Assembly (NCBI RefSeq): GCF_001618865.1 | Contig: NZ_CP015136.1 | Location: forward strand, 5,677,001-5,741,000 | Direction: 5' to 3' | Source of the DNA: Luteitalea pratensis | Lineage (GTDB): Bacteria > Acidobacteriota > Vicinamibacteria > Vicinamibacterales > Vicinamibacteraceae | DNA: 64,000 nucleotides | Part shown: positions 13,349 through 16,422 of the stretch, piece by piece | Layout of the letters: every line of letters starts with the position of its first letter | Numbering within the stretch: position 1 is the first letter of the stretch | Program-made: the position numbers and the translations under genes | The notes under the pieces: generated by a model | What the model saw: only the letters and a program-made list of their open reading frames with translations | Databases searched by the model: none | What the model was told of the DNA's origin: nothing

Positions 13349-15010
13349 TCAGGTCAGGGCCAGGTAGTCGTGGACGAACCGCACGACCATCGCGCCCTCG
13401 CCGACAGCTGACGCGACGCGATTCATGGCGCTGGCACGGAGATCGCCCGCCGCGAAGACACCGGGGACACTCGTCTCGAGTGGCAGCGGCTCGCGAGGTT
13501 CCTTCCACGTGCGCGAGTAGGCGGCATCGGCCATCAGGTCCCGGCCGGTCAGCACGAACCCCTTGGTGTCTCGCAGTACCTCGGCCGGCAGCCAGTCGCT
13601 GTGCGGCTTGGTGCCGATGAACACGAAGACGGCATCGACAGCCTGCTCATCGCTCGCTCCCCCATCGGACGAGACCAGGGCCGCGCGCTCGACATGCCCA
13701 GTCCCCTCGACGCTGGCGACCTCGGTGCGGGTGCGCACGCGGATGTTCTCGGCCTTCGCGATCTGCTCGATGAGGTACTGCGACATCGTGACGCGCAACG
13801 ACTCGCCGCGGACCACGATCTGCACGTCCTTTGCGTAGCGGGACAGGTGCATCGCGGCCTGGCCCGCCGAGTTGCCGCCGCCGACCACCACCACACGCTT
13901 GCCTGCGAACACCGGCGCTTCGGTCGCGGCCGCGCCGTAGTACACGCCAGCGCCCGTGTGCTCGGCGATGCCGGTGGCCGGATGCTCGCGATAGACCATC
14001 CCGGTGCACGCGAGCAGCGTCCGCGTCACGAGCACCCGCCCGTCGCTGACCTGCACGTGCTTGTAGCCGGCCTCGATGGTGACGCCGGTGACCTCGACGG
14101 GCACGAGGCACTCCGCGCCGAGGCGCTTGGCCTGCTGCACCGCGCGGCGCGTCAGTTCACTGCCGCTGACACCGGTCGGGAATCCCAGGTAGTTCTCGAT
14201 CTTCGAACTGGTGCCAGCCTGCCCGCCGGCGGCATGCCGGTCGAGCAGCAACGTCTGCAGGCCTTCCGAGGCGCCATACACGGCGGCAGCCAGGCCTGCC
14301 GGACCGCCACCGACAATCACCAGGTCGTAGACGTCGAACGCGGCGGCAAGCGGGCGGCCGAGGCGCGCGGCCACCTCCCGGGGCTCCGGACTCCGCAGGA
14401 CGGCGCCATCCTCGAAGAACAGGACCGGCAGCGCGTCGTCATGCAGATTGGCGGCCTCGAGCAACACCCGCGCCGCCGGGTTTCGCTCGATGTCGAGCCA
14501 ACGGTACGGCATCAGGTTGCTCGCGAGGAAGTCCTTGATGGCGTGCGAGCGAGGCGACCACTGGTGCCCGACGAGCCGCAGCCCCGACGTCTCGGGCCGG
14601 TACTCCTCCTTCCACGAATCGAGCAGGTCGTCGATGACCGGGAACAGCTTCTCCTCGGGCGGGGCCCACGGCTTCGCGAGGTAGTAATTGAGGTGAGCGT
14701 CGTTGATCGCCCTGATGGCCGCGTCGATGTCCGAGTAGGCCGTCAGCAGCACGCGGCGCGCCTCCGGGTAGATCTCGCGCGACCGCGTGAGGACCTCGGT
14801 GCCGTGCATGCCGGGCATCCGCTGATCGCTGACGACCAGCGCGACATCGTCACCGCGCGACTTCAGCTCCTTCAGGGTGTCGAGCGCCTCCTCTCCGGAG
14901 GCTGCGCCGACGATGGAGTACAAGTCGCGATAGCGGAGACGCAGATCGCGCCGAACCGCGGCGAGCACCTGCGGGTCGTCGTCGACGGCCAGGAGCACGG
15001 GCTTGTTCAC
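13349..15010 (-). CDS. Receiver domain fused to thioredoxin-reductase-like flavoprotein
   Basis: 553 residues in three parts. Residues 1-125 are a response-regulator receiver with phospho-acceptor D62 and conserved K113. Residues about 145-225 look like a thioredoxin/glutaredoxin-fold spacer without a CxxC. Residues 226-553 are a two-domain flavoprotein with FAD motif GGGPAG (234-239), NADPH motif GGGNSAGQAA (377-386) and a C-terminal GVFAAGDLR block. The CxxC of true thioredoxin reductase is missing (AGVYYGAAATEA lies in that region), so it cannot reduce thioredoxin in the standard way. It overlaps the upstream kinase by four bases, so the kinase is its likely phospho-donor. Output is presumably redox chemistry, not DNA binding. 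Confidence 0.9.
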   Translation of the reverse strand: MNKPVLLAVDDDPQVLAAVRRDLRLRYRDLYSIVGAASGEEALDTLKELKSRGDDVALVVSDQRMPGMHGTEVLTRSREIYPEARRVLLTAYSDIDAAIRAINDAHLNYYLAKPWAPPEEKLFPVIDDLLDSWKEEYRPETSGLRLVGHQWSPRSHAIKDFLASNLMPYRWLDIERNPAARVLLEAANLHDDALPVLFFEDGAVLRSPEPREVAARLGRPLAAAFDVYDLVIVGGGPAGLAAAVYGASEGLQTLLLDRHAAGGQAGTSSKIENYLGFPTGVSGSELTRRAVQQAKRLGAECLVPVEVTGVTIEAGYKHVQVSDGRVLVTRTLLACTGMVYREHPATGIAEHTGAGVYYGAAATEAPVFAGKRVVVVGGGNSAGQAAMHLSRYAKDVQIVVRGESLRVTMSQYLIEQIAKAENIRVRTRTEVASVEGTGHVERAALVSSDGGASDEQAVDAVFVFIGTKPHSDWLPAEVLRDTKGFVLTGRDLMADAAYSRTWKEPREPLPLETSVPGVFAAGDLRASAMNRVASAVGEGAMVVRFVHDYLALT

Positions 15011-16422
15011 GATCGACTTTCGATGGTGCCGGTCTCGGCAAGTGGCAGCGCGACGCAGAACTCGGTGCGCCCCGGGACCGACTCGACATCTATCTCGGCA
15101 TCGTTGTGGGTCAGCAGCCGCCGGACGATGTCCAGTCCGAGACCGGTGCCCTTTCCCACGGGCTTGGTGGTGAAGAACGGGTCGAACATGCGGGCACGTA
15201 TCTCGGGCGGGATGCCGGGACCGTTGTCGACGATGGAGACCGTGACGCGCTGACGCTGACGCCTCACGTTCACGTCCACACGACCACCCTCGCCCACGGC
15301 GTCGAGTGCGTTGTCGATCAGGTTTGCCCAGACCTGGTTCAGTTCGCCCACGAACCCGCGAACTGCCGGCAGGTCGGGCTCCACGTCGATGGCTACCGCA
15401 ATCGACCTGGCGCGCGCCTTCGACCTGAGGATGGTGACGGTGTTGCCTAGAGAGGACGCCAGGTCCACGGGCTCGGCCACGGTGGCCTGATCCATGTGCG
15501 TGAAGCCCTTGATGGCCTGGACCAGGCCCGAGATGCGCATCGCGGCGTCCTGGATCTCCGAGGCGAGTTCGCGCACCGAGCAGCCCGCGGCCGCCCAGTG
15601 GAGGACCGCGTCGAGGGCAGGCCCGTCCACCGACGCGGCGATCCGGTCGAGTGCCTCGATCGTCACGCCGGTATCGGCCAGCGCCAGGCCGCTGCCGGCG
15701 TCGAGGCCGTGGTCATCGAGCCAGTCGGCAATCGCCTCCTCGCGCTCGACCCGCTGGATTGGCGACAACACGCCCATCGAGGCCAACATGCCGCACGAGG
15801 ACCGGACCATGTCGATGGCCTCGATTTGAACGTCGGTGAGCCTGGACGCACCCAGCACGCGCGTGGCGCGTTCGGCCTCCTCCAGCCGGTTTTCGAGCAG
15901 CACGGCACTGCGCGCGATCGCCGCCGCCGGGTTGTTGAGCTCGTGGGCGAGGCCGGCCGAGAGCTTGCCGAGCGACGCCATCTTCTCGTCGTGCAGGTCG
16001 TTGGACGTGAAGTGCCGCGCGCGGTCGATCATCTTGTGCACGAGAATCGACGTCGCCTGGTGGCACTCGCGAATCATCTCGGTCAGCAGGTCGCGAGGCA
16101 GCGCCAGGACCTCGCAGGCCTCCTGCGCGACGGTGTCGCCGGGCGGGCTGGTCATCCGGGAGTACGGGAGTATGCCGGTGACGTCGCCAGCCCGCCACTC
16201 CATGACCTTGTGCCGGCCCGCGCCGCGGTCCACGAAGATGGCGATGTGCCCGGTCAGGACTGCGTAGAGGCCCTCGACCACGGCGCCCTTGTGGGTCAGG
16301 ACTTCACCTTCGTCGAGATGACGCAACGTGCCGTGCGCGGCGAGCCACGCAAGTTCTTCGCGTGGCGCGGCCCCGAGGGTCTTGTGTTGGGCCAGTTGTT
16401 CGATCAGGTCGGCGTATGACAC
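15007..16422 (-). CDS. Sensor histidine kinase with N-terminal cyclic-nucleotide-binding domain
   Basis: 471 residues, no membrane helix, so a soluble sensor. A CNB/Crp-like domain (about 10-125) precedes a dimerisation helix with phospho-acceptor H160 (GLAHELNNPAAA), an inserted helical region of about 120 residues, and a HATPase domain with N box (ELNQVWANLIDNALDAV), DNGPGIP, MFDPFFTTKP and GKGTGLGL. GTG start at 16422 with GGAG five bases ahead; TATGAT (16450-16455) could be the -10. The stop overlaps the receiver-flavoprotein start by four bases (translational coupling). The CNB domain may bind a nucleotide or act as a redox/heme-type sensor as in Crp-Fnr relatives. This is inference. Confidence 0.9.
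   Translation of the reverse strand: MSYADLIEQLAQHKTLGAAPREELAWLAAHGTLRHLDEGEVLTHKGAVVEGLYAVLTGHIAIFVDRGAGRHKVMEWRAGDVTGILPYSRMTSPPGDTVAQEACEVLALPRDLLTEMIRECHQATSILVHKMIDRARHFTSNDLHDEKMASLGKLSAGLAHELNNPAAAIARSAVLLENRLEEAERATRVLGASRLTDVQIEAIDMVRSSCGMLASMGVLSPIQRVEREEAIADWLDDHGLDAGSGLALADTGVTIEALDRIAASVDGPALDAVLHWAAAGCSVRELASEIQDAAMRISGLVQAIKGFTHMDQATVAEPVDLASSLGNTVTILRSKARARSIAVAIDVEPDLPAVRGFVGELNQVWANLIDNALDAVGEGGRVDVNVRRQRQRVTVSIVDNGPGIPPEIRARMFDPFFTTKPVGKGTGLGLDIVRRLLTHNDAEIDVESVPGRTEFCVALPLAETGTIESRS

Follow-up and report, generated by a model that had tools for sequence, protein, structure and literature searches.

What does a phosphorylation signal control when the receiver that would accept it is fused to a flavin oxidoreductase? 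The question is raised by two overlapping genes in a 64,000-nucleotide stretch of Luteitalea pratensis DNA (G000:C1:5677001-5741000 in a 7.48-Mb single-contig genome), referred to below as the window. The initial annotation had placed here a kinase gene sharing four bases with the gene of a receiver/thioredoxin-reductase fusion, and both reading frames, as well as the overlap, were found:

15007..16422, minus strand: soluble histidine kinase with a cyclic nucleotide-binding (CNB) domain, 471 amino acids (open reading frame; Pfam cNMP_binding and HATPase_c; AlphaFold model with a mean predicted local distance difference test score, pLDDT, of 81.6 and a predicted template modelling score, pTM, of 0.48, at which the relative placement of the domains is unreliable).
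13349..15010, minus strand: fusion of a receiver, a glutaredoxin-like (Grx) domain and a thioredoxin reductase (TrxR)-like flavoprotein, 553 amino acids (open reading frame; Pfam; model mean pLDDT 83.8, pTM 0.68, residues 269-278 below 50).
15007..15010, minus strand: GTGA overlap of kinase stop and fusion start, four bases common to both genes.

The pair is read here, with a probability of about 0.52, as a cytosolic two-component system in which the receiver, phosphorylated by the kinase, gates the output of the flavin oxidoreductase. From the sequences, the best inference is that phosphorylation would act on enzyme activity and not on DNA binding.

At the GTGA, the kinase C-terminus (...AGTCGATCGTGA) overlaps the fusion N-terminus (GTGAACAAG...). 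The same overlap is present in L043, L052 and L066, the three other fetched loci with the kinase-fusion order. In comparison with L043, the closest relative of the window pair (proteins 74% and 66% identical), the third codon position takes most mismatches in the two genes (93/72/232 and 104/88/208 at positions 1/2/3), and this excess argues that both reading frames are real coding sequence and not chance.

The neighbourhood survey that the initial annotation had proposed was carried out in 247 genomes drawn evenly from the window's phylum, Acidobacteriota, with a threshold of E<=1e-80 for the thioredoxin reductase-like (TR) family of the fusion; five or six first-look candidates were scored in each genome, and per-genome copy numbers are lower bounds. 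A TR-family match was found in 44 of the 247 genomes, at 62 listed places: 31 full-length fusions, one match from residue 119 (genome G121) and 30 starting at residues 130-216. The kinase was sought at all 31 full-length sites, comprising 28 wide regions, the window included, and three narrow loci (L024, L027, L028). At 30 of the 31 it stands adjacent on the same strand, and G121 has one too. A family kinase (E<=1e-40) occurs in 30/31 fusion genomes, with G121 counted, against 4/216 others (G005, G021, G069 and G188, all partial matches), a difference with a Fisher value of 3.9e-33 in a test that, like the one below, counts genomes as independent though they are related. Among the genomes in which every TR-family match is without the receiver part, 0/13 have a family kinase. 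The fusion genomes span ten family labels (f1, f2, f12, f16, f28, f29, f35, f37, f66, f71); most are supplied by f16, a large group which we take to resemble Terriglobales, and the kinase is missing in f12 only.

The pairing extends to plasmids. In ten plasmid records a match spans at least 80% of the fusion, and the kinase is directly adjacent in nine of them (Streptomyces, Tsukamurella, Nocardia, Nonomuraea, Nostoc sp. C052, Gloeothece, Deinococcus, Caballeronia and Paraburkholderia) and 2.6 kb off in the tenth, from Nostoc edaphicum. These relatives are annotated as 'FAD-dependent oxidoreductase' and 'ATP-binding protein'. The pair spans five phyla, the window's own, seen in genomes, and four others, seen in plasmid records only. 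The order is kinase-fusion in four fetched loci, including the window, and fusion-kinase in the rest. A second, divergent copy in the window genome, L042 (G000:C1:446000-465000), has the fusion at 8669-10354, 44-45% identical, and the kinase at 10296-11759. A contig scan with the window protein as query, a poor one, gave 13 loci with just receivers or fragments.

The receiver itself keeps the residues of a phospho-acceptor site:

14657..14992, minus strand: receiver domain, residues 7-118 (Pfam Response_reg, PF00072, 1.7e-16).
14825..14827, minus strand: codon of D62, the predicted phospho-acceptor (D in 40/41 fusions, G solely in the kinase-less L069).

The residues of the receiver site, D10, D62, T90 and K113, are kept in 38, 37, 37 and 37 of the 38 aligned fusions, respectively; three further fusions, checked separately, complete the 41 over which D62 and the dithiols were counted. 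The Pfam scan places PF00072 and PF07992 in one open reading frame, as the initial annotation had proposed for a receiver with D62 and an FAD/NADPH reductase. The sole fusion site without a kinase is L069 (1535-3307), with none in the 11 kb fetched, of which the upstream side comprises 1.5 kb and then the contig start, and none in the genome at E<=1e-40. Its receiver is broken (D62G, K113E, no Pfam receiver match), and this is the sole loss of the phospho-acceptor aspartate among 41 fusions. L069 may be regarded as a natural phosphorelay loss with the flavin module retained. From the co-occurrence, the intact residues and the L069 case we infer that the kinase phosphorylates the receiver.

The kinase has the order CNB domain, long H-box helix, helical insert and HATPase_c:

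16066..16323, minus strand: CNB (Crp-like) domain, residues 34-119 (Pfam; alignment to CRP 1i6x; cAMP-contacting Glu and Arg not kept).
15943..15945, minus strand: codon of H160, the predicted phospho-donor (AGLAHELNNP; H160 in 42/42 aligned family kinases).
15631..15834, minus strand: helical insert, residues 197-264, between the two helices of the dimerisation and histidine phosphotransfer (DHp) domain (secondary structure of the model; E228 in 42/42, W234 in 40/42).
15037..15342, minus strand: HATPase_c catalytic domain, residues 361-462 (Pfam 4.1e-25; ZraS 9jfj, Z 23.5, 150 residues aligned, root-mean-square deviation 1.9).

Pfam recognises cNMP_binding (1.7e-11) and HATPase_c (4.1e-25), and HisKA reaches 20.8 bits, below its cut-off of 26.9. 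The H-box, N-box and G-box residues are kept (H160 and N371 in 42/42, N367 in 40/42, D399 in 41/42). An insert in the DHp hairpin is unusual among HisKA kinases. The Crp-like domain proposed in the initial annotation stood the test of the profile. It should not be taken for a cAMP sensor. In CRP, cAMP is contacted by a Glu and an Arg of the phosphate-binding cassette, and in the alignment to the E. coli protein (1i6x) the window has 'GDVTGILPYSRMTSPPGD' where CRP has 'GDFIGELGLFEEGQERSAW'; control by cAMP was rejected on the missing CRP-type Glu and Arg and on the cassettes themselves, which vary across the 42 family kinases (a G-x-LP[YF]SR type in 11/42, FGE-type and others in the rest). The CNB domain as an obligatory sensor was also rejected, as cNMP_binding was found in 10/12 family kinases scanned by Pfam. 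The kinase of L052 has no such match, but its N-terminus reaches the contig end, and the nearer kinase of L099, 2.6 kb from the fusion, past a transposase and a bestrophin gene, carries a receiver in place of the CNB domain.

What the receiver would act upon is a flavin module of TrxR type:

13361..14335, minus strand: TrxR-type FAD and pyridine-nucleotide domains, residues 226-550 (TIGR01292; structural match 4a5l).
13913..13948, minus strand: site of the missing CATCDG, residues 355-366 (GVYYGAAATEAP), with the invariant Y358 and E364.

The module is matched by Pyr_redox_2 (PF07992, 3e-31) and end to end by TIGR01292 (4.3e-64), yet at 216 bits against a curated cut-off of 343. Its best sequence match in the PDB is 7jyp (6.7e-62), and in the fold comparison 4a5l aligns over 305 residues with a Z of 33.7 and a root-mean-square deviation of 2.0; the viral fold library gave partial matches alone, to receivers, kinases and other flavoproteins. 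In the fusion the structural matches listed span residues 224-553, and in the kinase mainly 141-464; the placement of the receiver, Grx-like and CNB domains therefore comes from sequence. In the alignment, a family-specific insert precedes the last motif of the TrxR module. A useful reference is L081 (7383-8654, genome G015 of the same phylum), a stand-alone Grx-TR protein with neither receiver nor CNB domain, which is 41% identical to the window fusion over residues 131-550, has the domain order Grx-TR in common with it and keeps both CPDC and CATCD. It represents the dithiol-bearing counterpart of the window fusion, in which both dithiols are missing and a receiver is present.

The absence of CxxC from the reductase, claimed in the initial annotation, was borne out. 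The window fusion has only two cysteines, C301 and C335, neither of them conserved. The family column richest in cysteine (30/38) holds Phe in the window. The CATCDG site reads [YF]YGxxxxEA in most fusions, with CxxC there in 0/41. The flavin-side residues are invariant across 19 aligned fusions, and the conservation of the module includes the invariant Y358, E364, N380-Q384 and MSxYL. Position 364 is Glu in 41/41 fusions and aligns with the Asp of CATCD in L081. This Asp serves E. coli TrxR as acid-base catalyst, and with Glu filling its column the fusion may keep a proton donor despite the dithiol loss. NADPH is bound in TrxR by the basic motif HRRxxxR; at its position in the fusions one Arg is left, R401 (VRGESL), kept in 38/38 and followed by the family motif MSxYL.

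Between the receiver and the flavin module lies a further domain:

14363..14581, minus strand: degenerate glutaredoxin domain, residues 144-216 (SPRS at the CPxC site; cis-Pro site P195 kept).

The 'thioredoxin-like spacer' of the initial annotation does correspond to a domain of thioredoxin-fold type, but this domain is actually of the glutaredoxin type and has also lost its CPxC. The top PDB match of its profile is 2lqo, the mycobacterial glutaredoxin Rv3198.1 (E 2.2e-7), hhalign pairs it with the glutaredoxin half of L081 at 99.7%, and the model of residues 144-216 shows a beta-alpha-beta-alpha-beta-beta-alpha order with moderate to good predicted confidence. Pfam Glutaredoxin is matched at E<=1 by 9/15 members, the window's own domain at 0.0067, short of the curated cut-off. 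L081 carries CPDC at the CPxC site, the window carries SPRS, and most of the other fusions show S and then varied residues. The catalytic motif is present in 0/41 fusions; P195 is kept in 38/38.

The receiver is not the only input domain joined to this module. In 12 of the receiver-less TR-family proteins fetched, of a kind annotated as CNB-domain thioredoxin-disulfide reductases, a CNB-like N-terminus is fused directly to the Grx-TR module (cNMP_binding in 10/10 of those scanned by Pfam), and CxxC is missing in all 12; several of them share a genome with a receiver fusion. The likeness to the window fusion extends over residues ~140-551, the Grx-like and TR modules, at ~40-48% identity among the matches listed; the difference is that CNB-TR proteins bear the CNB domain on the reductase itself, where the window fusion bears the receiver. 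The module thus receives the same type of input whether or not a phosphorelay intervenes. One CNB-TR protein, ATII-TrxR, is reported as an NAD(P)H-dependent reductase that uses both NADPH and NADH, and the reduction of 5,5'-dithiobis(2-nitrobenzoic acid) (DTNB) and thioredoxin is reported for it as well (PMC6544261). An identity of ATII-TrxR with the C. metallidurans CNB-TR protein (L135) was not adopted: one cysteine pair (17 residues) agrees and the domain positions disagree. The conservation of the flavin module, together with the assayed relative, suggests that the module is active, and the fusion itself, together with the parallel CNB-TR architecture, points to its gating by the receiver.

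A UBP-type zinc finger (zf-UBP, PF02148) recurs as a third gene. It was found in 35/44 TR-family genomes against 19/203 others (Fisher 1.3e-20), one of these 19 scoring short of the curated cut-off. Eight of the 35 have it no more than 4 kb from a TR-family gene; in the remaining 27 it is located at some other site or on a different contig. In the genome search, no zf-UBP gene was found alongside the window pair; the only one in the window genome stands directly behind the L042 pair (11704-12000, longest reading frame). In 3/4 actinobacterial plasmids (L095, L096, L103) it is the third gene, annotated in plasmid records as 'UBP-type zinc finger domain-containing protein'. In eukaryotes, UBP fingers bind the C-termini of ubiquitin. 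In L161 (G188:C769) a zf-UBP gene (7225-7419) lies directly beside a family-kinase fragment (7516-8271) at a contig end; the genome as a whole gave no TR-family match passing 1e-80.

In the proposed mechanism, a kinase dimer would sense a small ligand or the metabolic state through the CNB domain, autophosphorylate at H160 and then phosphorylate the fusion at D62. The phosphorylated receiver would rearrange its own protein, the inactive glutaredoxin domain acting as a structural link, and the C-terminal flavin module would be switched on or off in its NAD(P)H oxidoreductase activity. Electrons would pass from FADH2 to an external acceptor directly, because both dithiols are gone and the usual route is closed, and the co-encoded zf-UBP protein, where present, would be a candidate acceptor partner. 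A wider system of redox signalling with three components, in which a CNB kinase, a receiver-gated (or CNB-gated) dithiol-less flavoenzyme and the zf-UBP protein as acceptor or control route act together, is possible but doubtful; no described counterpart of such a kinase/receiver-flavoenzyme/zinc-finger system was found in the open-licence PMC literature.

Several points weigh against the phosphorelay, and rival explanations draw on them. The co-occurrence of kinase and fusion is partly phylogeny, with f16 dominant. Family kinases also stand alone: among 20 fetched loci distant from a fusion, 18 hold a full-length family kinase (L161 has a fragment and L163 a distant relative beside a hybrid-type gene), and 0/20 have a fusion within 8-10 kb. 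In a FastTree tree, whose supports were not inspected, the window kinase, that of L043 and seven of these orphans form one branch; the window kinase is 52-64% identical to the seven and 31-32% to the kinases that stand next to fusions in those genomes, and therefore it may have, or have had, other partners. On this evidence, and with the variation of gene order by lineage, it could be argued that kinase and fusion are neighbours and not partners, the kinase controlling another target and the receiver being phosphorylated by others or never. The adjacency at 30/31 sites, the GTGA coupling in 4/4 fetched loci of kinase-fusion order and the joint loss of phospho-acceptor and kinase in L069 make this quite improbable. 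On more than one occasion, moreover, fusions seem to have been joined by kinases from separate branches of the family, which favours coupling, yet allows several kinases to feed one fusion.

Other points concern the chemistry of the flavin module. With R401 as the single remaining Arg, the module may bind its coenzyme differently, may prefer another one or may no longer be catalytic. The module might then be an NAD(P)H/FAD redox sensor or a pseudo-enzyme that feeds back on the kinase or on a partner, the receiver serving for docking and timing. Such a role is consistent with the loss of both dithiols in 41/41 fusions, the eroded NADPH motif and the existence of orphan family kinases that could be controlled; we consider it unlikely, as the conservation of Y358, E364, N380-Q384 and MSxYL resembles an active site under selection and a CNB-TR relative is reported to use both NADPH and NADH (PMC6544261). 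The reported reduction of thioredoxin by ATII-TrxR, whose sequence was not checked, would fit poorly with a dithiol-free site. Together with the clear TrxR ancestry (TIGR01292 at 4.3e-64, Z of 33.7), the DTNB reduction (PMC6544261) and the zf-UBP association, it speaks for an ordinary thiol reductase, with FADH2 directly reducing an external dithiol of thioredoxin or of the zinc-finger cysteines, and in that case the TrxR annotation would be functionally right. This is an improbable reading of a family whose active-site loop has no cysteine pair, whose best cysteine column is incomplete (30/38) and is Phe in the window, and whose window member scores 216 bits against 343 for the TrxR equivalog.

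The surroundings of the pair vary. A weak promoter-like match lies upstream of the kinase:

16449..16476, minus strand: TTCTCA-16-TATGAT, ending ~26 bases before the kinase gene begins (one match, 0.3 expected).

The convergent neighbour is a gene of an Nramp-family transporter (11966-13345, plus strand). On the low-coordinate side, 1.9 kb from the pair, lies an alpha-glucan phosphorylase gene (9275-11431, plus strand), and the window also holds, at 11467-11925, a 152-amino-acid open reading frame with two CxxC motifs near its start and no Pfam or NCBIfam match at E<=0.01. A crude clustering of the longest open reading frames of the fetched loci revealed no conserved wider neighbourhood spanning lineages; zf-UBP, the one exception, came from a family search. 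Within a single group, 11 loci share a LuxR-type gene. GlgX is found near the fusion in 3/3 cyanobacterial plasmids with a full-length fusion (L097, L099, L101), where the fusion adjoins genes of an AGE-family epimerase and the GlgX debranching enzyme. Its presence there and that of the alpha-glucan phosphorylase near the window pair are probably a coincidence. Low-temperature-requirement A genes lie nearby in L097, L098 and L099.

Among known systems, the low-Mr thioredoxin reductase TrxB has the fold and the FAD/NAD(P) domains in common with the window fusion, which differs in being without the redox-active CATC and in adding the receiver, the Grx-like domain and the family insert. AhpF consists of one or more thioredoxin-fold domains followed by a TrxR module, with both dithiols kept. 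The window fusion resembles it in this layout, as well as in sequence and fold matches (1hyu, 4o5q), and differs in the loss of both dithiols. TrxR-like FNR is described as having the TrxR fold, no CxxC and proteins as electron acceptors (PMC10294844); the window fusion is likewise a CxxC-less TrxR fold, closer to TrxR (6.7e-62) than to FNR (8.3e-27) by sequence distance alone. Thioredoxin has been reported as a docking surface for response regulators (PMC9584953), and by analogy such a contact might be built covalently into the fusion, whose thioredoxin-fold domain sits between receiver and enzyme.

The receiver-TrxR fusion is a named response-regulator type ('TrxB') in censuses of two-component systems (PMC5847659, PMC9953108), and archaeal and mycobacterial examples are mentioned (PMC5847659). 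The system, which the initial annotation had called under-described, is therefore less singular than that, being a named class present in several phyla; in the open-licence PMC literature, subscription papers aside, no experimental study was found of a receiver-TrxR fusion or of a zf-UBP gene beside one. If the phosphorelay reading is true, a phosphorylation switch acts in several bacterial phyla on a flavin redox module instead of on genes, and a family annotated as 'thioredoxin reductase' is misnamed, the usual dithiol chemistry being unavailable to it. The kinase, the natural receiver loss, the dithiol-bearing counterpart and the zinc-finger partner form a testable set of parts for asking how a receiver gates an enzyme and to what the electrons are passed. 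Summarizing, the census regulators and the window fusion have in common a receiver joined to a TrxR-type oxidoreductase, an architecture already known by name and apparently uncharacterised. The census passages at hand give no function, lost cysteines, glutaredoxin domain, partner kinase or zinc finger; new here, beside them, is that the kinase is conserved, that both dithiols are lost, that one receiver has been broken naturally, that a CNB-TR branch runs in parallel and that a zinc finger is linked to the family.

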